From Scytonema sp. UIC 10036 (GTDB lineage: Bacteria > Cyanobacteriota > Cyanobacteriia > Cyanobacteriales > Nostocaceae), in NCBI RefSeq assembly GCF_009725235.1, contig NZ_WJFC01000224.1:1-21218 (forward strand): a stretch of 21,218 nt of DNA, given 5' to 3'. The notes below the pieces were generated by a model. The model saw only the letters and a list, made by a program, of their open reading frames with translations. It searched no databases and was not told the origin of the DNA. Shown here one piece after another: positions 1 to 16,800 of this stretch. Every line of letters starts with the position of its first letter. Within the stretch, counting starts at the first letter, position 1. A program made the position numbers and the translations under genes.

Positions 1-2
1 GT

Positions 3-1275
3 TTTATTATTTACTTATGTGCTAATTGCACAAATGGTCTTTTAGAGGAAGAAAAGAAAAAACTTGAGAGAAGAGTAAGAGAGTATAAAAATTTTGAAAT
101 TAAATATTATTTAATTGATGATTTAGTTAATTTAATAACAAAAGGAAAAAACAGAAAAGTTCATGCTAAATTAAAGGCTATCGATAATAATTTTTTTGAA
201 ACATCAGATGGGGATTTAAGATCTTTAATTACTCAAGTAGATATAAGGGAAATTATCCGAATAGTTATTGATGATGAGACATTGAGAGGAGATGCCTTCC
301 TAACTAGTTATGATATTCTAAAAAACTACGGCATTATTGAAGATGCTTTTCAAGATAATGTAAGAATGTACTTAAAAAATTCTAAAATCAACCGTAGTAT
401 CAAAAAAACTGCTCTCTCAGATGGGAATTATAGATTTTTCTATTTCAACAATGGTATCACTATTACTTGTGACAAATTTAATTATCAAAAAATGCGTTCA
501 CCAATAATTACTCTTGAGAATATTCAAGTAGTAAATGGGGGACAAACAATTCATGCTCTTTATGAAGCCTTCATAGAAGATCCAAGTAAATTTGAAGATG
601 TTGATATATTATGTAGAATCTATGAAACTGATAATTTATTCTTAAAATCACAAGTAGCTGAATATACTAATAGCCAAAATCCTGTTAAGAGTAGAGATGT
701 TCGCTCTATAGATTTTGTACAGCAAAAGTTGGAGCAAGAATTTTTAGCAATGGGTTTTTACTATGAGCGAAAGAGAAATCAGCATCATGGACAACCGAAA
801 AGTTTAAGGCTAGATGCTGAGAAAGCGGGTCAGGTGTTAATGTCTTTTTATAATAAAATGCCTTTGGAAGCTACTAATAGAAAATTCTACATTTTTGGTG
901 ATAGATACGAAGAAATATTCACTGATAATATTAATGCAGAAAAAGTTTTATTGCCTTACAACTCTATAAAAAATAGAAGAAGAGAAAAGACAGATAAAAG
1001 ATAACCTAGAGGTATCTCCAGAAAATTACTTTATTGTATATTCTTCCTATTATATTTTATATATTTTAGGAGAATTGGCTTATAAGCATTCTATTGAACT
1101 CACGTTAAGTAATCTCGAAGCAATTCAGAGTTTATATCCACAATCTCTAAAGATTGTAGAAGCATCTCTTCAAGAAGCGAAAAATTACTATTATGGAAAG
1201 TGGCATTCAGACGCTTCTTTCCTTAAAACAGCTCAAGCTAAAAAATTAATTGACAAGTACATAGAACTTAGTTAA
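3..1275 (+). pseudogene. AIPR-family phage-resistance protein, 5'-partial and frameshifted
   Basis: The frame is open from base 3, so the true start lies before the window. The AIPR family is linked to abortive phage infection and often travels with restriction-type defence genes; the molecular role is poorly known. Visible hallmarks are a DNVRMYLKNSKIN segment, FFYFNNGITITCDKF and ENIQVVNGGQTIHAL, which match the family's conserved NVR, NNGITI and VNGGQT motifs. The first frame stops at 1004. A second frame, open from 970 to 1275, continues the protein with about 100 residues (IEEEKRQIKDNLEVSPENYF onward). The two join if one A is removed from the A6 run at 968-973, giving about 423 visible residues. 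Neither 282 (TTG) nor 1075 (TTG) is a credible separate start. The gene is clearly more AT-rich than its neighbours, which suggests horizontal transfer. Family assignment is firm; whether the frameshift is real or a sequencing error is open. Confidence 0.85.
968..973 (+). other. Frameshift site in the AIPR gene (A6 run)
   Basis: Six adenines lie exactly where the AIPR coding frame jumps from frame 3 to frame 1. Dropping one A turns the codons ATA AAA AAT AGA into ATA AAA ATA GAA and opens the frame to 1275. Homopolymer slippage is the simplest explanation. Confidence 0.75.
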
Positions 1276-1315
1276 TAATTTTTCTTGATAAAGATTGGAA
1301 AAATTATGCTAATTC

Positions 1316-1349
1316 GTTTTAGAGATGCAAAATTTTGCGTCTCTAAAAC
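1316..1349. repeat. 34-bp loopless palindrome between convergent genes
   Basis: The arms GTTTTAGAGATGCAAAA (1316-1332) and 1333-1349 are reverse complements except for one T/G position, with no loop. Nostocales genomes carry many intergenic palindromes of the form TAGAGACG-N-CGTCTCTA, and this resembles them. It sits between the ends of the AIPR gene (plus) and the rtcB gene (minus), so it may also act as a bidirectional terminator, although no long T-run follows on either side. Confidence 0.75.
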
Positions 1350-1381
1350 TTGGCATATTTGTGAGAGATTTACAAAAATCG

Positions 1382-2849
1382 TCACCCTTTAAACGTCAAC
1401 ACCGGACTTAACTTTGCCACAACACCTACCATATCCGCCTGTACCTGCACATCAATTACGGGTTGTATGGGTTTATAAGCAGCAGGTGCTTCCTCAATGC
1501 ACCGTTCTTCTCGCAAAGTGATACAGTCTACACCTGTTAATCCTAAGGCTTCCTCGCTCTGGGATGCTCCTTTTCGGGTAAGCTCAAAGCGTGAAAGTAC
1601 TCTTCCCGCACCGTGGGAAGCAGACGAGCAAAAAGCTGAATTGCCTTTCCCTACTACTAGATATGATGGCGTACCCATCGAGCCCGGTATAATGACGGGT
1701 TGTCCTTCGTAGGAGGGACAAGCACCTTTGCGAGTTACCCATCCCGCACCCTCTTGCAAAGTGATGTTGTGCGGTAAGTCGTACACCAGTGGCGCTTCTA
1801 CATCTCCATACACTTCGCGCAAACGCAACCGCAGCAATTCTGCTAACAAAAGTCTGTTGACAAAACCGTAGTTGGCTGCTGTAGCCTCTGCTTGCAAATA
1901 CTGAGTCACTAGTTGGGGATGGGAATGCACGGATAAAGGAAAAATGTGAGAGTTTGGATACTTCACGCCTTTTTCCCAAGCGGTTTTCGCTCTGTCACGC
2001 CATATTCCGCCAATGTACTTACCGACGTTCCGAGAACCAGAGTGAATCATGAAGGCAATTTGTCCTTCTTTAATTCCCCACGCATGGGCTAAGGCTCTAT
2101 TCTCCACTTGTTCTACTCGTTGAATTTCAACAAAGTGGTTCCCAGATCCAATAGTTGCAAGCCCGCCATCGCGTACTAGCCCAGCTTCAGGAACTAATTC
2201 TTCAGGAGCAAGTTTCCAATTTCCCTCCATTGAACCATTTAAGAAGATGCGATCGCGAAGCGCAAGCCGTACCCGGCTTATCGCCCTCTGCAAGCAGTTC
2301 ATTAAGATTGGACTTGACAAAACTTCCCGTAGGCTCATCTAACATGGCATCTACCCAACCAAGAACCCCATGTTGAAACAATGCTCGCATAGTACGAGCA
2401 TTCATAGTGACATCACGGGTTCCAAAAAAGTAGTCCCCTTTCATGCGTTCTACAAACTGGTTGCGCTTTGCCAGGAATTGGTCAATTGTTAAATGAGCAA
2501 CGTGCAAGCGCATTCCGCAGTTTATATCTGAACCGACAGCACTGGGAATAACTTGACCGATTGTTTCGACAACTGAACCAATGGCAATCCCCGCATCACC
2601 GGGATGAAAGTCGGGTGTTGCACAAACACGGCAAACACACCCACCTGCAGGATGGCGCACATTGGCTAAGTTTGCTAGTTGTTTGAGCGCCTTCGCTTCT
2701 ACGGGAAAACCCTCTGGAAGTAAAACTTCTGCTACGGGTGCATCGGAGGTATTGGATAAACGAACAGAGTAAGTACTGTTGTTGTAACTAACACCTAGCC
2801 CTTGCTTGGCTAGAGCGCGTAAAAGTCGTGTTAAATTTTTTGGCTGCAT
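1382..2849 (-). pseudogene. rtcB: RtcB-family RNA ligase, interrupted by a small repeat insertion
   Basis: RtcB joins 2',3'-cyclic phosphate (or 3'-phosphate) RNA ends to 5'-OH ends using GTP and Mn2+, in RNA repair or tRNA splicing. The N-terminal frame (2849 down to 2280, 190 residues) carries PDFHPGDAGIAIGSVV and GSDINCGMR with the metal-binding Cys111. The C-terminal frame carries GSGNHFVEIQ, IHSGSRNVG, DLPHN and SASHGAGR, whose histidine is the guanylylated residue. The two frames differ by +1. Removing 28 bp at 2252-2279 joins D190 to the Arg codon at 2249-2251 and gives a continuous 479-residue protein, a normal RtcB length (about 410-480). The ATG at 2847-2849 has a GGAG Shine-Dalgarno five bases upstream. 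All catalytic motifs survive in sequence, but the encoded product would be cut into two incomplete parts. Identity is very secure; loss of function is inferred. Confidence 0.9.
2249..2284. repeat. Small HIP1-bearing palindromic repeat inserted in rtcB
   Basis: This 36-bp block begins with the HIP1 octamer GCGATCGC and contains the hairpin AAGCCG-TACC-CGGCTT on the plus strand (GGTA loop on the minus strand). It is flanked by the direct repeat ATCGC (2252-2256 and 2280-2284), spaced exactly 28 bp, like a target duplication or slippage product. Short dispersed repeats of this style are known in filamentous cyanobacteria. No second copy is seen in the window, so repeat status is inferred from its structure and from the frame it breaks. 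Confidence 0.7.
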
Positions 2850-2854
2850 GAAAA

Positions 2855-2858
2855 CTCC
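2855..2858 (-). promoter_or_regulatory. Ribosome binding site of rtcB
   Basis: On the minus strand GGAG lies five bases before the ATG at 2849. It supports this start over the later ATG codons of the gene. Confidence 0.6.
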
Positions 2859-2912
2859 AGGTTCAGCACTGACGAGAGTCGGTTAGGTCAAATTTCAGAA
2901 ATACCGAAAATG

Positions 2913-2933
2913 AGACTCATAACTTATGACTCT
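2913..2933. promoter_or_regulatory. Imperfect palindrome upstream of rtcB
   Basis: AGACTCATAA and TTATGACTCT surround a single C and are complementary at 9 of 10 positions. The site lies about 65 bp upstream of the rtcB start, where a promoter or operator would be expected. Regulator binding is only a possibility; no clear -35/-10 pair was identified. Confidence 0.3.
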
Positions 2934-3009
2934 GAACTATAGGCTTGATTTTTTTGAAGAGGTTAGGAGACTTTGGTTCAGCAGCCGCGTCTTACCTAAT
3001 ATAGTGGAA

Positions 3010-3040
3010 GTCGTTTTCCCACATAGTATGGGAAGACGAC
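3010..3040. repeat. Hairpin with 12-bp arms, probable dispersed-repeat remnant
   Basis: The arms GTCGTTTTCCCA (3010-3021) and TGGGAAGACGAC (3029-3040) pair with one T-G wobble around a 7-base loop. The surrounding stretch (2926-3159) is open on the plus strand and would encode a 77-residue peptide containing FPHSMGRRQENSYL, but the hairpin and the lack of a recognisable family make a repeat more likely than a gene. The rest of 2934-3190 holds nothing else identifiable. Confidence 0.5.
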
Positions 3041-3196
3041 AGGAGAATTCCTACTTATATCTAAGCTATATCAATAACATAAAGATTTTTGAATGGCAAG
3101 CTTTTTTATTTATAATCCTTATTTCTGCACAAAAGTACGAAGTAAAAAATGTATTTTGAGTATTTTCAACTATTGTCAAAAAGGACGAGATTAATT

Positions 3197-3223
3197 AAAA
3201 AAAGAAGTGGCATAGCCACTTCT
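3197..3223 (-). terminator. Rho-independent terminator (minus strand)
   Basis: AGAAGTGGC (3203-3211) and GCCACTTCT (3215-3223) form a perfect 9-bp stem with an ATA loop. Read on the minus strand, the stem is followed directly by seven T (complement of 3197-3203). It would end transcripts arriving from the right, such as the TOPRIM-gene remnant, before they reach rtcB. Confidence 0.75.
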
Positions 3224-3347
3224 AAGTAATTCCCAGGTAGAACCTAATTTTTAGTATAACTTTTCTAAATATTTCAAATCGTATAATTACACACTTATTA
3301 ATTTTCCAATTTATTTTGCTTTTTAGTTTTTAGGTTTTATTTTAAAT

Positions 3348-3363
3348 GTACAGGACTTACGCA
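3348..3363. mobile_element. Possible insertion-sequence end motif
   Basis: GTACAGGACTTACGCA resembles the terminal sequences of insertion elements scattered through Nostoc-type genomes; this is from memory and was not searched. The TAA stop of the adjoining TOPRIM fragment (3357-3359) lies inside it, as expected if an element interrupted that gene. A matching second end was not found, so a complete element is not claimed. Confidence 0.35.
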
Positions 3364-3657
3364 ACTGGCACAGGCGATCGCGCGATTCCCCGGTTCTTCT
3401 GTTTCTGGTTTTGCTGTTGTCGTAACCTAGCCAACAGATCCTCATTCCAGTCTTTGGCTACTGGACGCACCCAAACAGCTTTTGGCAGCTGCTCCCGAAT
3501 CGCTTGAGCCAATTCATTCCCAGATACATCATTATCTGTAGCGGCTATCACTTTTGGTATGGTTCTGAGGTATTCCACAGGTAGGCTCTTGGCACTGTCA
3601 ACTACCTTGAACTTTATACTTTTCTTACAAAATGCCCAATCATTTGTGAGAAAAATT
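3357..3657 (-). pseudogene. TOPRIM-domain protein fragment (primase/relaxase-associated type)
   Basis: The frame is open on the minus strand from 3657 down to the stop at 3357, about 99 codons, with no convincing start. A GTG at 3578 exists, but recognisable sequence continues upstream of it. The fragment reads VVDSAKSLPVEYLRTIPKV, then VIAATDNDVSGNELAQAI and KDWNEDLL. ATDNDxxG is the acidic DxD motif of TOPRIM folds, and KDWNEDL is seen at the C-terminus of TOPRIM domains in plasmid primase or relaxase-associated (DUF3991-type) proteins. The N-terminal catalytic Glu region is absent, and the end falls in an IS-like motif with a Gln/Arg-rich tail. It is best read as a truncated relic of a mobile element or plasmid gene. 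Confidence 0.6.
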
Positions 3658-3993
3658 TAAAAACAAAACCAACAACTTCAGCCTTTCTACTGAATTTTTC
3701 AGTTCCAAAGACCTATCAGTAAAATTTCGCTGTTATTATTCATTGAGACATTTAATAATAGGAAGAAGAATTGAATTAGCTCAAAGTGTTTGATGAGTCG
3801 GTTAACCGTAACAGCACCGAAATACTCATTGTTTGGATTCAATCGCTAGAGCCACTGTTCATTATTCAATATTGAGCAGAATAAACTCTATTTTATTGCT
3901 TGAAAGACTGATTTGCGTTCCCATTGCTTAAAGAAACCGGGGGGCATGAGATGACTGTAAAAACACTCTAGAAATTGGTAACTAAGAAACTAG
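3658..3993. other. Intergenic stretch without a recognised feature
   Basis: AT-rich sequence with stops in the frames inspected. No RNA gene, clear promoter or strong hairpin was recognised. Confidence 0.5.
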
Positions 3994-4620: not shown

Positions 4621-5844
4621 ATGAGTAATAACAATCCCATTAACCTACCCTTCAGTTTGATTGATAGAGATGCTTTCCCGTGGGAAATCACACCAGACGG
4701 GGAATTGGAATACGGTCATATAGCAACCTACTCAGATTCAGGCGAGCAATATTTTCAATCTTATGGAAAATTGAGTAATGATTATTACGGTTATCATAGT
4801 GCCGATGCTTATACGGAAGATAATGGTCGTGAAGTCGTCATAGATCCTAGATATTTGGGGAATGGATACGGTGACGATTTGCCAATTTCAGTATCCCGAA
4901 AAATTTACGTTTCAGAAAACTCTGGCTTTGTTCGGATTTTAGATATTGTCAAAAATACATATTCAGAACCTTGGCAATATGACCATAGGGTTTACAATTA
5001 CTCACATGACTTGCCATCAAATATTACCAAAACCTCAAGTGGAGACAGCAAATTAAACCTGGATGATAACTGGTTAGTTTTAGATAGTATAAGCGATAAC
5101 AATACTAGTGATATAGTTCGAGTCATAGCTGGAACGGGTGGTTATCGTCCTTATCAGGTTTCAAATGGGAATACTTCTGGTGTTACATACAGGCTAAAAT
5201 TGGCTCCAGGCGAAACTCAGATTGTCATGCACTTTATTGCCCGCACTCCCGATGTCGCGACTGCCTTAGCAAAAGGAGACCAGCTTGCGCTTCTGAATAT
5301 GAATGCTTTAGCGGGAATGACTGAGGAAGAAAAGAGCCAGGTTATCAACTTTAACACTGGTGTTAATAATAAACTACCGCCTGATTTGATAGTTGAGTCG
5401 GCTCAAATACTTCCAGGTGAAGTTCCCATTTCGGATGGAAAAATTTCAGTGACTTTGAATGTCAAAAACCAAGGAACTGGGGCATTACTAGAAGACAGAA
5501 GCTGGGGAACGGTTTATATTTCCGATGATAATAAACTTGATGAAAATGACAGAGCAATAGATTCATGGAGTCAATATTTGGAAAACTCCATGTTGCCTAA
5601 TACCAGCTATGAAATAACTGAAGAAATTGATTTATGGAATGTAAAACCGGGACGTAAATTCTTACTTTTTGAAGTAGATCCATTATATGGCAACAATTTC
5701 TATTCTTATAACAATGAAGAAATTGAATCTAATGAATCTAACAATATATTAGCCATACATATTGAAGTTAAAGCACCTGATTTAGATATAATAGAAGCCA
5801 ATATAGAAAATGGAGACCCGCCAAGAGAAGTCTCTTGGGGTTAG
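4621..5844 (+). CDS. Giant CARDB/Calx-beta/RTX adhesin, N-terminal part ending at an amber codon
   Basis: This is the first 407 codons of a 4760-codon frame that continues to 18900 without any frame change. Residues 1-252 form a unique, Asp/Tyr-rich region with no Sec signal peptide, as expected for a type I secretion substrate. Residues 253-384 are the first CARDB repeat, with PPDLIVES, VKNQGTG and WGTVYISDD. The second CARDB repeat begins at APDLDI and is cut after EVSWG by TAG at 5842-5844. The sister repeat at 7018-7053 reads SWGQEIPVFWTV, so the stop stands where Gln (CAG) is expected and a C-to-T change explains it. Without suppression this product would lack the calcium-binding array and the secretion signal and probably stay in the cell. 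Confidence 0.85.
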   Translation: MSNNNPINLPFSLIDRDAFPWEITPDGELEYGHIATYSDSGEQYFQSYGKLSNDYYGYHSADAYTEDNGREVVIDPRYLGNGYGDDLPISVSRKIYVSENSGFVRILDIVKNTYSEPWQYDHRVYNYSHDLPSNITKTSSGDSKLNLDDNWLVLDSISDNNTSDIVRVIAGTGGYRPYQVSNGNTSGVTYRLKLAPGETQIVMHFIARTPDVATALAKGDQLALLNMNALAGMTEEEKSQVINFNTGVNNKLPPDLIVESAQILPGEVPISDGKISVTLNVKNQGTGALLEDRSWGTVYISDDNKLDENDRAIDSWSQYLENSMLPNTSYEITEEIDLWNVKPGRKFLLFEVDPLYGNNFYSYNNEEIESNESNNILAIHIEVKAPDLDIIEANIENGDPPREVSWG

Positions 5845-8800
5845 AAGATATCAGTTTCTTGGACTGTCAAAAACCAAAGTAATACTGTCCCTGCGCCAGC
5901 TAATTGGTCCGATCGCATCTATATTTCTAGTGACCCTTCTTTTGATGAAAAAGACTTGTTCTTTGGTATATATGAGGAGGACATAGACAAGCAACCAATA
6001 GCTCCCGGTGCTACGTATAATATTCAAAAAAACATTACTATTCCTGGTGGAAGCGACCAGTACCTTGGAAGTAAGTACCTAGTATTTGTAGCAGATTATT
6101 CTGACGATCAAGGTGAAACCAATGAAGGCAACAACGCCTACGTCTACTTAACACCTATAGAGTTTAAAGCCCCAGACCTGACCATTACAACAAACCCAAA
6201 TGTTCCTCTTCCCTCAACAGCTATTCCGGGACAGCAAATACCTGTTTCTTGGAGTGTTACCAACCAAGGAAATGGTACAGCCTTAGCCGATTACTGGTAT
6301 GACGGCATCTATTTATCTAGTGACCGAGATTTTCAATCTTGGCTAGATACACCTCTAGGCGGTGAAACAATCAACAACCAGACACCGCTAGCTGCTGATG
6401 CTAGCTACACTATTAAAGACAAAGTTATTACTATACCAACCACAGCCAAGGGTCCTCAGTACTTGCTGTTTGTAGCTGACAGATCTGGCAGTTGGAGTTA
6501 CCCACGGCAACAAGAAACCAACGAGCTTAACAATGTTTACGCTGTACCAATTCAAATAAATACACCAGACTTACTGATGGAATCTGCTAGTATTGCAGGA
6601 AACAAGAGTACGGTCATTATAGGCGAGCAAATATCAGTAAGTTGGACTGTGAAAAACCAGGGAGGTTACCCATCTGAAGCTAATTGGGTAGACCGCATTT
6701 ATATTTCTAGTGACAAATCATGGGATGACAGCGATGCGTATGTATACAGCGTATTTATTGACGAGCAAACACCTCTAGTGGCAAATAATGGTACTTACAG
6801 TATTGACAACAAAGTTATTACCATACCTACCACGATGACTGGAGAGCGGTATCTGCTGTTTATCACAGATGCAACTGGTAACCCAAGAGATCAGATTGGT
6901 AATCAAAGTGAGAGTGATGAAACTAACAACACATACGCAGTTCCCATTGAAATCAAAGCACCGGATTTGACGGTAAAAGAGGCTGGACGACCAAATCCAG
7001 GTACAACCACTTGGACAGCCAGTTGGGGTCAGGAAATACCAGTTTTTTGGACTGTCGAAAACACAAGTGATGCTGCCGCTCCAGCTAATTGGTATGACCG
7101 TGTATATATTTCAAGTGACACCACCCTTAATGGCGGCACACTTTTATATAGTGAATTTATTAGCGAGCAAACACCGCTAGCTGCTAATGGAACCTACACT
7201 ATCAACAACAAACTGATTACCATACCTAACTATAGTAACTACATCAGAGGAAATCAGTACTTACTGTTTGTTACAGATGCAAGTGGAGACCAAGGAGAAA
7301 CGAATGAAGCCAAAGGTCTATTGGAAATCAACAATGTAAAACCAGTACCGATTTTTATAGCTGCACCAGACCTTGTGGTTGAATCGGTAACTGCTGTTCC
7401 ATCAACCTCTGCCCAATTTGGTCAAACCATTGATGTTACTTACTTTGTCAGCAATGCTGGCGATCCTGGTTCATCAATTGTTGCTTCGAGGTGGACAGAT
7501 GGGATTTGGCTTAGCAAAGGATCAACGCTTGACAGCCCTAGAATTGAGTTGACACCTATATCGGTAGAGAGAGATACACCGTTAAATTCTGGTACTTCTT
7601 ACTCCAAAACAGTTACCGTACCTTTACCATTAAATCCGCAGTTCTCCAACGGGACTTACTATATTTGGGTGGCGACAGATACTTCACACAATCAAGTGGA
7701 ATTTAACGAAACCAACAACACCAAATTCAGCCAACCAATTAATCTGACATTACCGACCATACCCGATTTGCAGGTCACTAGTGTTGTGACTCCGCTTGAG
7801 GGACTGTCGGGACAAAAACTGGAAATTGTATGGACAATCTACAACGGAGGGGATAAAGATGCCACTGGAGTATGGCACGATAACGTTTATCTGTCGAAAG
7901 ATGGAAGTATCGGAAACGACGATTTTTATGCATCTTTTTCCTTTGAAGGAACAATTCAAGCAGGCAAGCCAATTGAGCGCAGGCAGTTCATTGACTTGCC
8001 TATCGATCTAGAAGGTGAGCGTTGGGTAGTTGTTAAGACGGATGCTAGTGGCGATGTCTACGAACACGGTCAAGAGAGCAACAATACTCTTATTTCCTCC
8101 AATCCTATGAACATTCGCCTCAGCGATTTTCCGAACCTGAAAGTATCCAGCGTGACTGCTCGAACCGATTCAGCTTTCTCCGGTCAGAAAATCACTGTTG
8201 ATTGGGTAGTAGAAAACACAGGAACTGGCTCAACTAGCGCTCCAATTTGGTATGACGCGGTTTTCCTGTCTTTAAACGGTCAAGAAACATACCTGGGTCA
8301 AACTTCTAACTTTAGCTACTTAGATAAATATAGTAGCGGCATACACAGCTATAACAACAGTTTAGAAGTGACTTTGCCTAATAACGTCGAGGGCAACAAC
8401 TACTACTTAGTTGTTAAAACTGATTATTACAATAATGTCTACGAATATCAAAACGAGGATGACAATTTTCGGAGCACAGAATCACCCACCAACATTGAAC
8501 TGACTCCTCCACCAGACTTGCAGTTGACTGTCAACGAACATTCCCCAGTGTTCTCAGGTCAGAGGACGACTCTGAATTGGACTGTTGTCAATAATGGTCC
8601 TGGCAAAACCTCTCAGCATAGCTGGTATGACGAAGTTTATATGTCAGCTGACCCCTATCTGGGTAATGACGATGAGGAGTACTTCCTGGGTTGGAGTTAC
8701 CACTACGGCGAACTTGATGTTTATGCTGCTAACAGCACTAATGGAGCTACTAGCAGCTACACCACCAGTTTGGATGTCACTTTGCCAATAGGAGTGAGTG

Positions 8801-10880
8801 GAAATTTCTACTTCATTGTTAGAACTGACGCTGGCAATCAGGTTTTGGAATTTGCGGGCGACGCCAATAACATTGTTGCCCAACCTACACCTACTACTGT
8901 TAAACTTACACCACCGCCAGACTTGGAAGTCGAGTTGCTAGGCGTTCCAACTCAAGCTTTGGCTAGCCATGGATTAACCATTGATTACCGCGTCACTAAC
9001 AATGGCTCAACCGCTACTCCCAACTATGCCTGGGTTGATGCTTTCTATCTGTCAGAGGATGCTGATTTCAACTCCAGCACGGATAGGTTATTGGGTGAAG
9101 TTACGCAGTATGGCTCTTTAGACGCAGGTATACCCGATGACCGTTCTGTAACCTTCACTCTACCTGATGGGCTGAGTGGTGCTTTCCACGTCTTCGTTGT
9201 TACTGACCAGCGCAATGACGTTTTTGAACTGAATAATCACAATAATGTTAATAAGTACAACAATGTTGGTAATAATGTCGGAGTTGTTACAGTTTCATCG
9301 CGTCCGGCTGATTTGGTAGTTTCGGCGATCGATGTTCCCACAACTCTTGAGGCAGGCATTGCGAGCCGTATCAAATGGACTGTTGCTAACACTGGAACTG
9401 GTGACACTGCTGTCAGGGCTTGGACTGACAGCATAATTGCGTCTGGTGATACAAATTTAGGCAACGACGATGACGTTGTTTTAGGTTCTTTCTACCACAG
9501 CGATACATTAAGTTTGATAGACGGTACTTACCGAAGTGGTTTGTTGAACCCTGGGGATTTCTCCGAACGCAACGAACTGGTTACCATTCCCTTCACCTTG
9601 TCAGGTCAGTACCATTTGTTTGTTGTGACTGATACCAACTCTCAGGTCTATGAAGCAAATGCTCTTGGCAATAACTATAAATCCCAATTAATTACCGTCA
9701 ACCGAGACACCCCCGATTTGCAAGTGACGGGAGTTAGTGTAATTAATGCGACACCTTCTGTATCAACAACAGACAAGCTCGCTGTTAATTGGACGGTGAA
9801 AAATCTCGGTACTGGTCGCACTAATGCCTACTCCTGGTACGACAGCGTTTACCTTTCTACCGACACCCAACTCAACTCTCAACAAGACATTTACTTGGGA
9901 CAAGTTTTTCATTCTGGTGCCCTAGACCAATTCGGCTCTTATGACGGTTCTGGTACCTTTAACCTGCCAATAGACCTTAAGGGTAATTATCACGTCATTG
10001 TCCGCACAGATAAAAGTGCCAATAGCGAGTATAATGACCGGGTTTTGGAAGGTTCCTTAGAAAACAACAACGACAAAGCAACCACCAACACCACTGCTAT
10101 TACCCTAGGTAAAGTTCCTAACTTGGTGGTGGAAAGTGTTGATGCACCCATTGATGCTATTAGCAGTCAACTGTTTAGTCTCACTTGGACTGTCCGCAAC
10201 GATGGTGCTGCTACTGGCTACAAGCGTTGGTACGATGCCATCTACCTCTCTCGCGACCAAAATTTTGACCGCAATAGCGATGTTTACCTTGACTATCGAT
10301 ATCATTTTGGCGATTTAGCAACAGGAAAGACGTACACGCAACAAAACCAACTGTTCAAAATCCCTTCTGGGTTGTCCGGTCTATTCTACGTCTTTGTTGT
10401 CACTGATGGTGGCAATGAGGTATACGAGCGCGGTGGAGAAGGCAATACGGTTGGTAACAATTTGAACTATGACCGGAACTCCGTGCAGGTGAGTTTGCCG
10501 AACCCTACTGACCTAAGTGTCGGTACTATCACTGTCCCTGTCAATGCCGTTCCAGGACTTGATGCCACCATTAGCTACAGGATTAACAACACCGGACCAA
10601 ATGCGGCTCAAGGTATTTGGCATGACTCCATCTACCTTTCTGCTGATGATAAGTGGGATATAAATGATACTTTTTTTGGACGCAGCCAAGCACCTGTAAA
10701 CTACGTAGCTTCTCCTGGCAATGAGTACAGCTATTACGACAATAGTATAACGGCTCCCTTACCTGGTGTAGTCAGGGGCGACTATCACGTTATTGTCAAG
10801 AGCGATATTCGCAACGCCATTGTAGAAAACGATGAAAATAACAACATTGGTGGTTCTCTAGAGAAAGTATCAATTGATGT
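5377..10880 (+). repeat. Array of 14 CARDB-type repeats (coding)
   Basis: Fourteen units of about 125-135 residues start near 5377, 5773, 6172, 6562, 6958, 7366, 7759, 8128, 8512, 8917, 9304, 9712, 10117 and 10504. Each has three landmarks: a (P/A)DL or PNL start followed by a beta strand; (V/I)xWTVxNxGxG in the middle; and W(Y/V/H)DxIYLSxD. Most end in an FxVxTDxxxxVxExxExNN segment. CARDB is a beta-sandwich adhesion-associated domain common in bacterial surface proteins. Units 3-5 are closest to one another (the EQTPLxAxxxYxI segment recurs), suggesting recent duplication. The amber codon lies in unit 2. Confidence 0.85.
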
Positions 10881-13800
10881 CGAGTCACTGCAATTGGGTG
10901 TCTCTAAAACTGGAACTCTCTTCCAGAAACAATCTGCCTACTATAAGATTGATGTCGCCCAGGGAGAGACACTACAAGTCACCTTTGATTCCCTTGCGGA
11001 TAATGCGTTTAACGAACTCTACATTCGCTACGGTGAAGTGCCTTCCCAAACAGAGTTTGACTATGGATTTGAGAATGTCTCTGCCGACCAGCAAATTGTC
11101 GTACCCTTTACCGAAGCTGGCACTTACTATGTCCTTGCCCGTGCCATCAAAGCTCCAGAGTGGATTCCTCGTCTAGTTGTAGATGAGAATACTACTGTTT
11201 CTGGAATGGGAAATAACTACACGATAGAGGCTAAGACGATTGACTTTGGCATCACGTCCATCGGTCAAACGGTAGGCGATCGCGGTGGTAAGATAACTCT
11301 GGAGATTGATGGTGCCAAGTTTACTCCGTACATGAGGGCGGAGTTGATTGATAGCACTGGTAAGTCAATTGTTGCTGAGAATATCTGGTTTGAAGGTTCA
11401 ACCGACGTATTTGCAACGTTTGACCTAACGAATGCAGCAATAGGAACTTATGACCTGAAAGTTTCGCAAACTTTGAGTGAGCTAGTCTATCAAGAAAATG
11501 CTGATGGGGAACTTGAACCTGTATTTATTACGAATGCTGATGGTGAGCTTGAGCCTGTATACGTTACGGAAGAAAATATGGATGTGCTGGATGATGCATT
11601 TTCAGTTGTGAATGCACGTCCGGATAACGTCTTGATTTCCGTAACCTCGACATCTGCTATATCCCCCGGACAAAGCTTCGACATCATTGTTTCCTATGCA
11701 AATAGCGGTACTCATGATGTCGCGGCACCAGTCATTGTTGTAAATACTGACCGCGACGTTCATCTACAGAACATTCAAGATGGAGATGGATTTGTCCAGA
11801 TAGGCTCAATGACGTTGCTGGGCATTAGCAATGAAGGACCGGCGGGTACTCTCCGTCCTGGGGAAATGGGCATAATTCGCCTTCGGGGAACAGCGCCTTC
11901 GACTACAGGACCAATCAATATTACTGCTCGCCAAATAGTAGATGATGGCACTCCAGTTGACTACAGCGACTTTATAGAGTATCTGGGCGGTGATATTTCA
12001 ACAAAGTCGTGGTTTGATGCAGCCAAGGCGTTGCAAAATCAGTTTGGCAGTTCGTGGACTACTTTCCAAGCAGGTTTGGCTAATCAGGCGACTGAATCTA
12101 CTATCACTAGTAGCAGCTATACACATTCTGCTACAAAGTTGTGGAGTGATGTGGCTTTAAATGCGTGGCTCCTAGCCGAGTTGGAAAATCTATCCACAAC
12201 TAATGAAAGTAGCTCTTTAACAGATAGTGATGGTTCGTCAACAAGCGCTCGTAATACAAGTTCCTTATCAGGAGATAGCAGCTCCCAAACCGAAGAGGAA
12301 ATACAGAATGAAGTAAGTTTAGGGTTGACAGGAAGTGTATATCACGTAGATGTTAGTTCTGAAAATAATCCTGACCCTAAAAAGCCTCCCACCCCACCAT
12401 CGAATAATCCATCCGAAAGTCCTGGAAACCCTGGAAACTTTGAAAACCCGAATAATTCATTTGACCCCGGACACAGTACTACTAATGTTGTCGTTTCCCG
12501 CGACCCCAACGACATCCTTGGTCCTCAAGGGTTTGGTGCAGAACATTGGGTAACATCTGACCCCTTAAATTACACCATCCGCTTTGAAAACGACCCAATT
12601 TTTGCCACTGCACCCGCCCAAGTTGTACGCATCACCCAACAACTTGATAGCGACCTCGACTTCCGTACCTTCCGCGTAGGTGACTTCGGGTTTGGCGACA
12701 CATTTATCGACGTACCAGACAACCGAGCTTTCTATCAAACCCGTCTGGACTTAACTACTACTAAAGGAATCTACGTAGATGTCGTAGCGGGTATTGATGT
12801 TGCTACAGGGCAAGCCTTCTGGGAACTGACATCTATAGACCCCACCACTGGAGTAGAGCCAACCAATCCCTTGCAAGGTTTCTTGCCACCCAACATCACC
12901 AAACCTGAAGGGGATGGCTTTGTCAGCTACTCCGTAAAACCCAAATCGAGTGTTGAGAACGGTACTGTCATTGACGCTCAAGCACGCATTATCTTCGATA
13001 TTAACGAACCCATTGACACACCAGCAATTTTCAACACCATTGACAAGAGTAAACCCACAAGCACTGTTAGCGCATTGCCGAGTGCGACTAACGACACCAC
13101 TTTCTCAGTCAGTTGGTCTGGTAGTGACAATACGGGTGGGTCAGCTTTGGCTGGTTTTACTATCTACGTAAAAGACAATGGCGGAGCATTTGCTCCTTGG
13201 CTGGAAAACACCACTCTCACCGAAGCTACATTTACAGGCATTGCAGGTCACACCTACGCCTTCTACAGCCGTGCCCGTGACAACGCGGGCAATACTGAAG
13301 ATGCTCCGAAGAGTCCTCAAGCATCTACGACCATTGCTGGTGGTAACCCTGGTACGCTAGCATTCGGTGCTGGTGAGTTCAGCATTAGCGAAGATGGCAC
13401 ACAGATTCATGCACTGACCATCATCCGTACCGATGGCACGGCTGGTTCAATTAGCGCCACTGTTACCCTGAGTGATGATACCGCCATCTCTCCAACCGAC
13501 TACAACAGCACTCCCATTGTTGTCACCTTTGCGTCGGGAGAAACAAGCAAAACAGTGCTCATCCCCATCGTCAATGATACGTTAATTGAAAGCGCACAGA
13601 AGCTAAACTTAGTTCTGGGCAACCCCACGGGCGGTGCGACCATTGGCGGTCAAAACAGCGCTACCGTCACCATTGTAGATGATGATGTGCAGCTAGCTTT
13701 TAGTGCTGCAACATTTAGCGCCATCGAAGACGGCACACAAGAGGCTGCTGTCACAGTCATCCGTACTGGCAGAAGCTCTGGAGCAGTCAGTGCCACTATT

Positions 13801-16800
13801 ACACTCAGTAATGGTACTGCCACTTCCCCGACTGATTACGACAGTACATCTATAGTTGTAAACTTTGCTGACGGAGAAACAACTAAGACTGTTGTCATCC
13901 CAATTGTTAACGATACGGTCTCTGAAAGTGATGAGGCGATCGACCTCACCTTAAGCAGCCCGACTCTAGGTGCAACAATTGGGACTCAAAGCACCGCTAC
14001 CTTCATAATTAAAGACAATGACACTCCGCTTAACCTCATCGGGACTCCCAACAATGATACCTTAGTTGGCGGGTATGGTAATGACACCTTGGATGGTAGA
14101 GAAGGCTCGGACACCTTAATTGGCGGTGCGGGTAATGACACTCTCATTGGTGGTACGGGCAATGACACATTAGACGGTGGTATTGGCAATGACTCCATGG
14201 ACGGTGGCAGCGGCAATGATACCTATATTGTTGATAGCGTCGCCGATACCGTTATTGAGAATGCGGGTGGCGGTGCTGATACAGTCCAAGCTTCTGTTGA
14301 CTTCTCAATAGATGGGATGAGTATAGAAAATCTGATCCTGACTGGTAATGCCATCAGTGGTACTGGTAACAACTTGAGCAACCGCATCACAGGAAACGCT
14401 CAGAATAACATCTTGAATGGTGGTGACGGTTACGGCGAGGACACCTTGGATGGTGGGGAAGGTAATGACATAATGTCTGGTGGCTATGGTCATGACACCT
14501 ACATTGTTGATTCGCCTAACGACATCATTATCGAGGATGCTGACGTTTTTGGTATTGATACGGTCGAAGTTTCTGTTGACTACTCAATAGCTGGATTTGC
14601 CAATGTTGAAAATTTGATACTAATTGGTAATGCCATTAACGGTACTGGTAACTCAGTCGGCAACTATCTTGATGGAAATGCACTCAACAACATTTTGTCC
14701 GGGGGAGAAGGCAACGATTCTCTCTATGGCGAAGAAGGGGATGACACCTTAATTGGCGGTGTCGGCAACGATTATCTGTATGGTTATACAGGTAATGACA
14801 CTCTTGATGGCGGTACTGGTGATGACAGAATGTCCGGTGGTAGTGGCAATGACACTTACATTGTTGATTCAGTTAACGACACCATTACTGAGAATATTAA
14901 TGAAGGTTATGATACCGTTAAAGTTTCTTTTGACTACTCAATCGCTGGGCTGACCAATATAGAAAACTTGACCCTGACTGGTAATGCCATCAGTGGTACT
15001 GGTAACAACCAGAACAACCGCATCACAGGGAACGATCTAGACAACGTCTTGAGTGGTGGCGCTGGCTATGACACTTTAATTGGCGGTGCGGGTAACGATA
15101 CCCTGATTGGCGGTACTAGTGATGATACTTACGTTGTTGATTCGCTTAACGACATCATTGTTGAGAATGCGAACGAAGGTTATGACTCGATTGAGGCTGC
15201 GATTGACTACTCAATCGCTGGGCTTGCTAATATAGAGCGCCTAAGACTAACTGGTAATGCGATTAACGGGACTGGCAACTCTCTCAACAACAGGATCTTC
15301 GGAAACTCTCTTGACAATACTTTAATTGGTGATGCAGGTGACGACTTTTTGGATGGCAGCATGGGCAACGATACCCTCATTGGAGGAGTAGGAAGTGATT
15401 ATTACATCATCGATTCACCCAATGACACCATTGTTGAGAATGCATTGGAAGGTGCTAGTGATTGGGTCGAGGCTTCTGTTGACTTTTCAATTGCTAACTT
15501 TACCAATGTAAAATATTTAACACTAATGGGGAACGCCATCAACGGTACTGGCAACTCCCAAAACAACTCTCTTGAGGGAAATGCACTTGACAACGTTTTG
15601 GATGGGGGAGAAGGTGATGATATCATAGCAGGCCACTTTGGAAACGATACCGTAATTGGTGGCGATGGTAACGATACTCTCTACGGTGATGAAGGAAGCG
15701 ATACTTTAATTGGTGGTAATGGTAACGATAGTTATTATGTTGACAGCACGGCAGACACCATCATCGAAGAATTAAACGCTGGGACAGATAGCGTAGGGTC
15801 ATTTGTTAACTGGACGCTAGGAGAAAATCTAGAGAATTTAACGCTTTACGGTTCCAACTCCATCAACGGCACGGGCAATCAACTCAGCAACACAATCACG
15901 GGTAATGCTGCTAACAATATATTGAGAGGTGGTCTCAGTTACGATCGCCTCTATGGAGAGGCTGGGGATGACACTCTTGATGGCGGAGACGGCAGCGATA
16001 GCCTGAATGGCGGTGATGGAAATGATACCTTGGATGGCGGGTCAGACCACGATTATCTCTATGGCAACGCTGGCAATGACACGCTCAACGGTGGCAGTGG
16101 CAATGATTACCTCAGGGGTGATGCGGGGAATGATACGCTCAACGGTGGGTCAGGGAATGATAGCCTTGATGGGAGCACGGGTAACGATGTCCTCGCGGGT
16201 GATGATGGGGATGACTACTACTCTGTTGACAGTACCAGTGACAGCGTTTTGGAAGCAGCGAATGCTGGTACAGATACCGTGAGTTCATCAGTCAGTTGGA
16301 CGCTTGGAGATCATTTAGAAAACTTAACCCTGACGGGCTATAGTGCGCTCGCTGGTACAGGTAATGCTCTCAACAATACAATTAGGAGCAATAACTACGG
16401 AAACAATCTGTTTGGAAATGGCGGTAATGACACCCTCATTGGCGGTACTGGTAATGATACCCTTGATGGTGGTACTGGTAACGACAGAATGGAAGGTAGC
16501 ACTGGTGATGATACTTACATCGTTGATAGCATCACTGATACCATCATTGAGAGTGCGGTTAGCGGTACTGATACAGTTATTGCTTCTATTGACTTCTCAA
16601 TTGCTGGGTTAGCCAACATCGAAAATCTCACACTAACTGGTAGTGCCATCGGCAGTACGGGGAATTCTTTGAACAACCGCATGACAGGGAACGCCCTCGA
16701 CAATACCTTGAATGGCGATAGTGGCAATGACACCTTAATTGGTGATGCGGGCAACGACACCCTCATTGGCGGTACGGGCAATGACACGATAGATGGTGGT

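Follow-up and report, generated by a model that had tools for sequence, protein, structure and literature searches.

A 28-bp member of a dispersed hairpin repeat family lies in a HIP1 site and splits rtcB in Scytonema sp. UIC 10036

The split rtcB gene

The window, by which we mean the whole 21,218-nucleotide stretch of contig NZ_WJFC01000224.1 of Scytonema sp. UIC 10036 that was analysed, carries on its minus strand rtcB (1382-2849), an RNA-ligase gene of RNA repair that is interrupted by a 28-bp block at 2252-2279 (Table 1). Together with its flanks (2249-2284) the block reads GCGATCGCGAAGCGCAAGCCGTACCCGGCTTATCGC. The direct repeat ATCGC is present at 2252-2256 and 2280-2284, with a spacing of 28 bp, and GCG at 2249-2251 reads together with the element's own end as a regenerated copy of the palindromic octamer HIP1 (2249-2256).

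As the first-pass annotation of this DNA had claimed, excision of 2252-2279 fuses both rtcB frames into an RtcB protein of 479 residues. Both pieces match Pfam RtcB (PF01139), at profile positions 1-114 and 124-426. The perfect 6-bp hairpin that it had placed in the block is present, and a second hairpin of 3 bp accompanies it. As the sequence stands, the N-terminal open reading frame (ORF; 2202-2849) reaches a stop after 215 aa and the C-terminal ORF (1382-2338) has 318 aa; the C-terminal product predicted in the database (P0121) is 282 aa long, at about 1382-2230. An open frame alone is weak evidence, since many 3n+1 deletions near the site also preserve it. The joined RtcB is 93% identical to those of Scytonema hofmannii PCC 7110 and Scytonema sp. 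NUACC26 and 91% identical to P0003 and P0004. In an alignment of 19 RtcB sequences D108, C111, N228, H229, E232, H260, H351, and H403 are invariant, which we take to be the usual metal or guanylylation ligands of RtcB.

Table 1. Positions of the rtcB parts, the 28-bp element, and its target site in the window.
Feature	Position	Strand	Description	Basis
Inserted 28-bp element	2252-2279	-	AAGCCGGGTACGGCTTGCGCTTCGCGAT on the minus strand	Clean 28-bp gap in relatives; dispersed family
Predicted hairpin 1	2264-2279	-	AAGCCG-GGTA-CGGCTT, 6-bp stem; fifth pair C-G in the window copy	Fold
Predicted hairpin 2	2255-2263	-	GCG-CTT-CGC, 3-bp stem; GAT tail at 2252-2254	Fold
One part of target HIP1	2249-2251		GCG	Sequence; empty HIP1 in G522
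Other part of target HIP1	2280-2284		ATCGC	Sequence; empty HIP1 in G522
rtcB N-terminal part	2280-2849	-	Original frame, 190 codons	ORFs, Pfam
rtcB C-terminal part	1382-2251	-	Out of frame with the N-terminal part	ORFs, Pfam

Empty sites in the nearest relatives

The nearest relatives compared at the DNA level of rtcB were S. hofmannii PCC 7110 (G523) and a second Scytonema genome (G522). The surroundings of the block align at 89% and 87%, respectively, and in each the block is matched by a single gap, clean and 28 bp long; such an empty site had been set beforehand as a test of the insertion. The empty site is GGCGATCGCATC in G522, an intact HIP1, and GCGATCTC in PCC 7110, the octamer with one base changed. 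The RtcB proteins P0001-P0007 have no extra residues at this position of the alignment. The comparison with relatives argues strongly that the block was inserted. Relatives carrying the same block in a functional frame, which would have spoken against this, were not found in the rtcB loci examined; the blocks in frame there are different ones of 24 bp.

The ratio of nonsynonymous to synonymous substitution rates (dN/dS) is 0.12 between the joined window rtcB and that of PCC 7110, and 0.105 between PCC 7110 and G522. Private amino-acid changes in RtcB number 8 in the window, 5 in PCC 7110, and 8 in G522. The joined gene thus shows no sign of relaxed selection, which implies either a young break or a gene that is in some way still read. 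The insertion is probably recent, and the strain, judged from its DNA, has probably lost, or nearly lost, this RtcB.

A dispersed repeat family with two forms

The 20-bp core of the element, AAGCYGGGTACRGCTTGCGC, was found at up to one mismatch in 155 copies in PCC 7110, 67 in G522, and one each in eight other genomes, while it was absent from the remaining 207 of the 217 genomes of the family at this threshold. The reversed core pattern, used as a control, gave no match in these 217 genomes. The first pattern surveys had found the repeat in one of 43 genomes and in one of 388 genomes of the order, both times the same Hassallia copy; they were nearly empty because neither set contained the two Scytonema genomes, which were reached through rtcB similarity and then proved copy-rich on pattern search. 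These counts, together with the empty sites, support the earlier suggestion that a dispersed cyanobacterial repeat has moved into rtcB.

We examined 130 distinct copies, of which Hassallia contributed one and the two Scytonema genomes the other 129. They are a sample of the known copies, drawn from places that a pattern favouring the 28-bp form had located, with neighbours in the same stretches added. The 28-bp form ends in GCGCTTCGCGAT/A, and the 30-bp form in GCGCTAAGAGCGAT/A or GCGCCAAGGGCGAT/A. Among 74 arrays of a single unit, 53 are 28 bp long, 18 are 30 bp, one is 29 bp, and two are 27 bp. The repeat codes for nothing. Each of the two forms is predicted to fold as two hairpins; the window unit has a predicted energy of -8.3 kcal/mol (z = -2.3 against shuffles, with 5 of 200 shuffles folding equally well). 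The window has no match in Rfam at gathering scores.

Two to four units occur in 22 of the 96 groups of copies, and the orientation within the array is uniform in all 22. Neighbouring units differ in stem or size in 28 of 30 pairs, which excludes simple tandem duplication for most arrays. Local slippage or duplication, by which the 28 bp would have been made in place by copying across ATCGC, finds some support in the ATCGC that flanks the block and in the fact that hairpins favour slippage in general. It is already refuted by the core at 155 and 67 copies in the two relatives, and the block has no second copy in the whole window (its 36-mer occurs once at up to three mismatches); this origin has next to no probability.

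HIP1 as the insertion site

When the insert is removed, 61 of the 94 Scytonema arrays yield a perfect HIP1 (GCGATCGC) and 80 yield one with no more than one mismatch, compared with a background of 0.16% of positions in the same loci within one mismatch of the octamer. These counts and the frame counts exclude six of the 130 copies, for which no right end could be assigned. The repeat sits inside HIP1 between the fifth and sixth base, i.e. between the third and fourth on the other strand; the first-pass annotation had called it HIP1-linked, and this is exact. At two loci, a dehydrogenase and a response-regulator-like gene, filled copies read GCGAT-element-GCGAA-CGC where the empty relatives have GCGATCGC. 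The cut therefore falls at GCGAT^CGC (GCG^ATCGC on the other strand), unless the A of the element end arose later. Because of its terminal GCGAT or GCGAA, a unit restores a HIP1-like site on its far side, which fits further insertion there.

Homologues were sought for nine repeat sites, of which three yielded clean empty sites: a 58-bp array (L126) against G522, and two single copies (L102 and L139), each against a homologue within its own genome and, for L139, also against G522. The eight comparisons of filled and empty sites comprise four clean empty sites, one second filled copy (L102/L232), and three that were too diverged (L164 twice, L101). In S. hofmannii, the response-regulator-like paralogues L102 (position 1501) and L136 (position 698) share the position of their 28-bp unit, close to the 3' end of the gene, and a third paralogue (L231) has an empty HIP1.

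This also bears on the target duplication or slippage scars proposed earlier. The ATCGC repeat is real, but a classical target duplication was not borne out, because one side is HIP1 sequence and the other is the element's own end.

The split, as seen in an assembled contig of 21,218 bp, could in principle be an error of sequencing or assembly with rtcB intact in the cell. However, no base-calling error could create a block that belongs exactly to a dispersed family and lies precisely in HIP1, and a mis-join at a repeat would need to have left both rtcB flanks in order. We consider such an error highly improbable.

Other inserts at the same rtcB position

Of 76 rtcB loci, 72 covered the block site: 62 lack an insert, one is longer by 3 bases, and nine are longer by 24 bases, all nine preserving the frame. 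HIP1 is intact at the site in 13 of the 62 insert-free loci, and the window's 28-bp block was found in none of the 72. Six of the 24-bp inserts, in loci titled Nostoc, Cylindrospermum, Amazonocrinis, or Desmonostoc, are of the type GCGAT-GGCTNCGCC...-CGC; the other three, titled Richelia, Oscillatoriaceae, and Microcoleus, read TCCCTACGGGATAGCTTCGCTTCA or a variant. With the window block, three different inserts have thus been found at one rtcB position, and this recurrent target site is an addition to the first-pass annotation.

One sequence of each 24-bp type was folded and two hairpins were predicted for each, the second type folding no better than shuffles (z = -0.64). Matches to the first type occur in 19 of 27 genomes tested, and 17 of these have a match outside rtcB; the other two (G019 and G026) match solely through their rtcB insert. 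Compensating changes are visible in the second hairpin of this type.

Cyanobacterial rtcB has other variable inserts of 12-174 nt at codons 25, 37, 90, and 357, the last being filled in 15 aligned loci. In Nostoc sp. CHAB 5824 (L071), rtcB lacks everything between residues 188 and 443, and this deletion has its left edge near the same HIP1; the contig is short and an assembly fault is possible.

Reading-frame filter

For the frame count we used 95 arrays, the 94 from the two Scytonema genomes and the Hassallia copy, and took as open a frame of at least 450 nt. Of the 29 arrays with a length divisible by three, 18 lie in open frames, compared with 4 of the 66 others (Fisher p = 1.3e-8). The result was similar at cut-offs of 300 and 600 nt, and without the unit-start adjustment for 27-bp units the counts were 16 of 26 against 6 of 69 (p = 3.3e-7). 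A further nine of the 66 arrays interrupt a frame that rejoins on removal. Of 175 control points 350 nt off the arrays, 103 fell in such open frames. The length of a unit is therefore of consequence to the host, in that units of 30 bp survive in open frames and most of those of 28 bp do not. The window copy, being the frame-breaking 28-bp form, belongs to the disfavoured length kind.

A dehydrogenase gene with a scattered 28-bp insert

Among the genomes with one copy, which here means a single match to the 20-bp core at one mismatch, Hassallia byssoidea (G039), G430, G442, and G458 share with S. hofmannii a 28-bp form at one and the same HIP1 within a short-chain dehydrogenase gene; the remaining four one-copy genomes have 30-bp forms at other places. 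Hassallia byssoidea additionally has five matches to the 24-bp type. The dehydrogenase gave 40 matches in 26 of the 217 genomes, and 30 loci were fetched, of which five are filled (L251, L256, L257, L258, and L269). Three of the rows (L277, L278, and L280) seem to be second records of adjacent genes that the count already includes, and the L266 match starts at the site.

The gene tree comprised 28 rows, 25 of them different, after two short rows had been dropped. The five filled rows require five state changes on it, and a single clade was rejected (approximately unbiased test, p-AU = 0.0008). The element is the same in all five copies except for the last base. Indels of 6, 15, and 27 bp in this gene are also discordant and suggest allele exchange, so that repeated insertion is not proven and we do not claim five independent insertions. 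One of these indels is the 27-bp insert GATAGCGAAGCGCTGCTGCGAAGCGCA, found at one place in L256, L257, and L265, which disagree on the 28-bp insert.

Such exchange raises the question of whether rtcB received the element from foreign DNA that already bore the insert, through homologous recombination, rather than by a new insertion in this lineage. The scattered distribution of the same 28-bp insert in the dehydrogenase tree and the other discordant indels speak for it. Against it, the block is in none of the 72 rtcB loci covering the site, and the flanks match Scytonema rtcB throughout; we regard this route as very unlikely.

The filled dehydrogenase copies also bear on the possibility that rtcB still works because ribosomes skip or recode the block. 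The mobile translational bypassing elements of yeast mitochondria are short hairpin inserts between matching codons, and the insert in the window rtcB is likewise a short hairpin insert between matching codons, GAT standing before it and again at its end. An rtcB with no other lesion and a dN/dS of 0.12, the nine arrays in frames that rejoin on removal, and the same out-of-frame insert in the dehydrogenase of four genomes besides S. hofmannii would all fit skipping. However, efficient skipping would prevent the strong depletion of non-multiple-of-three inserts from open frames, and in this the Scytonema repeat differs from the yeast elements. Most filled dehydrogenase copies, moreover, bear other lesions: the 27-bp insert is also present in L256 and L257, whose frames extend for only 174 and 170 aa; L257 and L258 each have 1 nt inserted; and the 5' part is missing from the match of L269, whereas L251 is otherwise intact. 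Most of these copies therefore look like dead genes. A recent insertion accounts equally for the intact rtcB flanks. Owing to these lesions and to the depletion, we downgraded the skipping explanation and now give it hardly any credence.

Proposed mechanism of insertion

Taken together, the results show a 28-bp member of a dispersed family of predicted two-hairpin repeats inserted into HIP1 (GCGAT^CGC) at rtcB codon 190. The explanation as a whole, with a recent insertion, movement in trans, and the frame filter, is very probable. We propose that the non-coding repeat would be mobilised in trans and that the folded single strand of one unit, RNA or DNA, would be inserted, by joining or by copying, at the one fixed point where a HIP1 had been opened. 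The GCGAT or GCGAA end of the unit would rebuild a HIP1-like site on one side, where further units could be added in the same orientation. Selection would then retain inserts of a multiple of three in genes and purge most 28-bp ones, the rtcB copy being one that may not yet have been purged.

Several points weigh against this proposal. The dispersal counts come from the relatives PCC 7110 and G522, not from the host genome. HIP1 is not rebuilt within one mismatch in 14 of the 94 arrays, and, had the GCGAA end arisen through a subsequent base change or an exchange of alleles, the insertion point would be less exactly fixed. The fifth pair of hairpin 1 is T-A in 71 of the 130 copies, C-G in 56, and neither in 3; this covariation favours the proposal but concerns one base pair with two states, for which a single ancestral double change could suffice. 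Random insertion into a palindrome does not explain the uniform orientation within arrays, and recombination between existing units would also fit. The orientation of 74 places in PCC 7110 showed no relation to chromosome position (p = 0.44), so that nothing ties insertion to the replicating strand. Finally, the repeat was absent from the flanks of all 30 Y1-transposase loci fetched (of 40 matches), and no mobilising enzyme was thereby identified.

The last two results bear also on a more specific version, in which a Y1 transposase would move the repeat as a single-stranded hairpin in the manner of REPIN/RAYT or IS200/IS605 elements. Repetitive extragenic palindromes (REPs) and REPINs are short hairpin repeats whose spread has been attributed to a REP-associated tyrosine transposase (RAYT) that is encoded elsewhere and acts in trans (PMC3116915, PMC3733652), and the Scytonema repeat is alike in its hairpins and in its proposed spread in trans. 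Its fixed short target, the lack of a clear target duplication, and the Y1-transposase matches in both Scytonema genomes (16 and 24) are in favour. However, the GTAG or CGTC tags that go with REPINs were not seen in the 28 bp on inspection of both strands, the partner was not found at the 30 fetched loci, and no orientation trend was seen along the chromosome. A Y1 transposase as the mover is unlikely in our opinion.

A wider reading would make HIP1 a true attachment site for invading hairpin modules of 24-30 nt able to enter genomes from outside. It is suggested by the one rtcB HIP1 position that took three different modules in different lineages, and by the near-identical 28-bp unit which, as the sole copy found in four non-Scytonema genomes, occupies one dehydrogenase HIP1 on backgrounds that do not form a clade. 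We think it quite unlikely to hold.

Relation to known repeats

The Scytonema repeat shows the features of the small dispersed repeats (SDRs) of heterocystous cyanobacteria: non-coding units of 28 or 30 bp, many dispersed copies, and filled and empty sites between relatives. To our knowledge, no enzyme that moves such repeats has been identified. SDR5 is a repeat of Nostoc punctiforme, reportedly described by Elhai et al. in 2008 (Genome Res. 18:1484), who are said to have given the families SDR1-8 of that species a length of 21-27 nt and to have seen a shared fold among SDR4-6. The Scytonema units, mostly 28 and 30 bp, lie outside that range. HIP1 is a highly over-represented cyanobacterial octamer with an unsolved function, and SDR5 is placed in it between nucleotides 3 and 4, as stated in a later paper that cites the 2008 work (PMC4390886). 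The point GCGAT^CGC, fixed at two loci and consistent with the rebuilding of HIP1 in most arrays, coincides with this published point. Hence a small repeat placed in HIP1 is a phenomenon already known from the SDR5 work, as cited there. The Scytonema repeat is probably a new family of cyanobacterial SDRs, set apart from SDR5 by its unit length. We found no paper on it among the open-licence literature of PubMed Central.

The 24-bp HIP1 inserts of Nostoc and relatives, GCGAT-GGCTNCGCCAACGCCTTCGGCGA(A/T)-CGC, share with the 28-bp block the rtcB position, a compatible insertion point, and, in the one sequence folded, two predicted hairpins; many copies have the 3' half CGCCAAGGGCGA in common with the 30-bp form. 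They differ in the 5' hairpin, in a length that keeps the frame, and in having few copies per genome (at most seven at three mismatches). The Scytonema repeat is not a classical miniature inverted-repeat transposable element (MITE) either, as its hairpins are internal, a terminal inverted repeat is absent, and the flanking repeat is HIP1 sequence.

As its insertion point is fixed, its frame filter measurable, and its empty sites clean, and as two genomes contain more than 200 copies, the family offers material on which the function of HIP1 and the movement of small repeats can be tested. It also illustrates that a conserved gene can be split by a sequence of a mere 28 nt.

Other features of the window

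No phage record matched window positions 1-3700, and the sole match in the plasmid search was the rtcB of Nostoc sp. MS1 (71%). An AIPR-domain protein (PF10592) is encoded at 282-1004, convergent with rtcB. Further along, a very long frame (4621-18900), which encodes CARDB, Calx-beta, and RTX-type calcium-binding repeats, is split by an in-frame TAG at 5842-5844 into parts of 407 aa and more than 4,300 aa.
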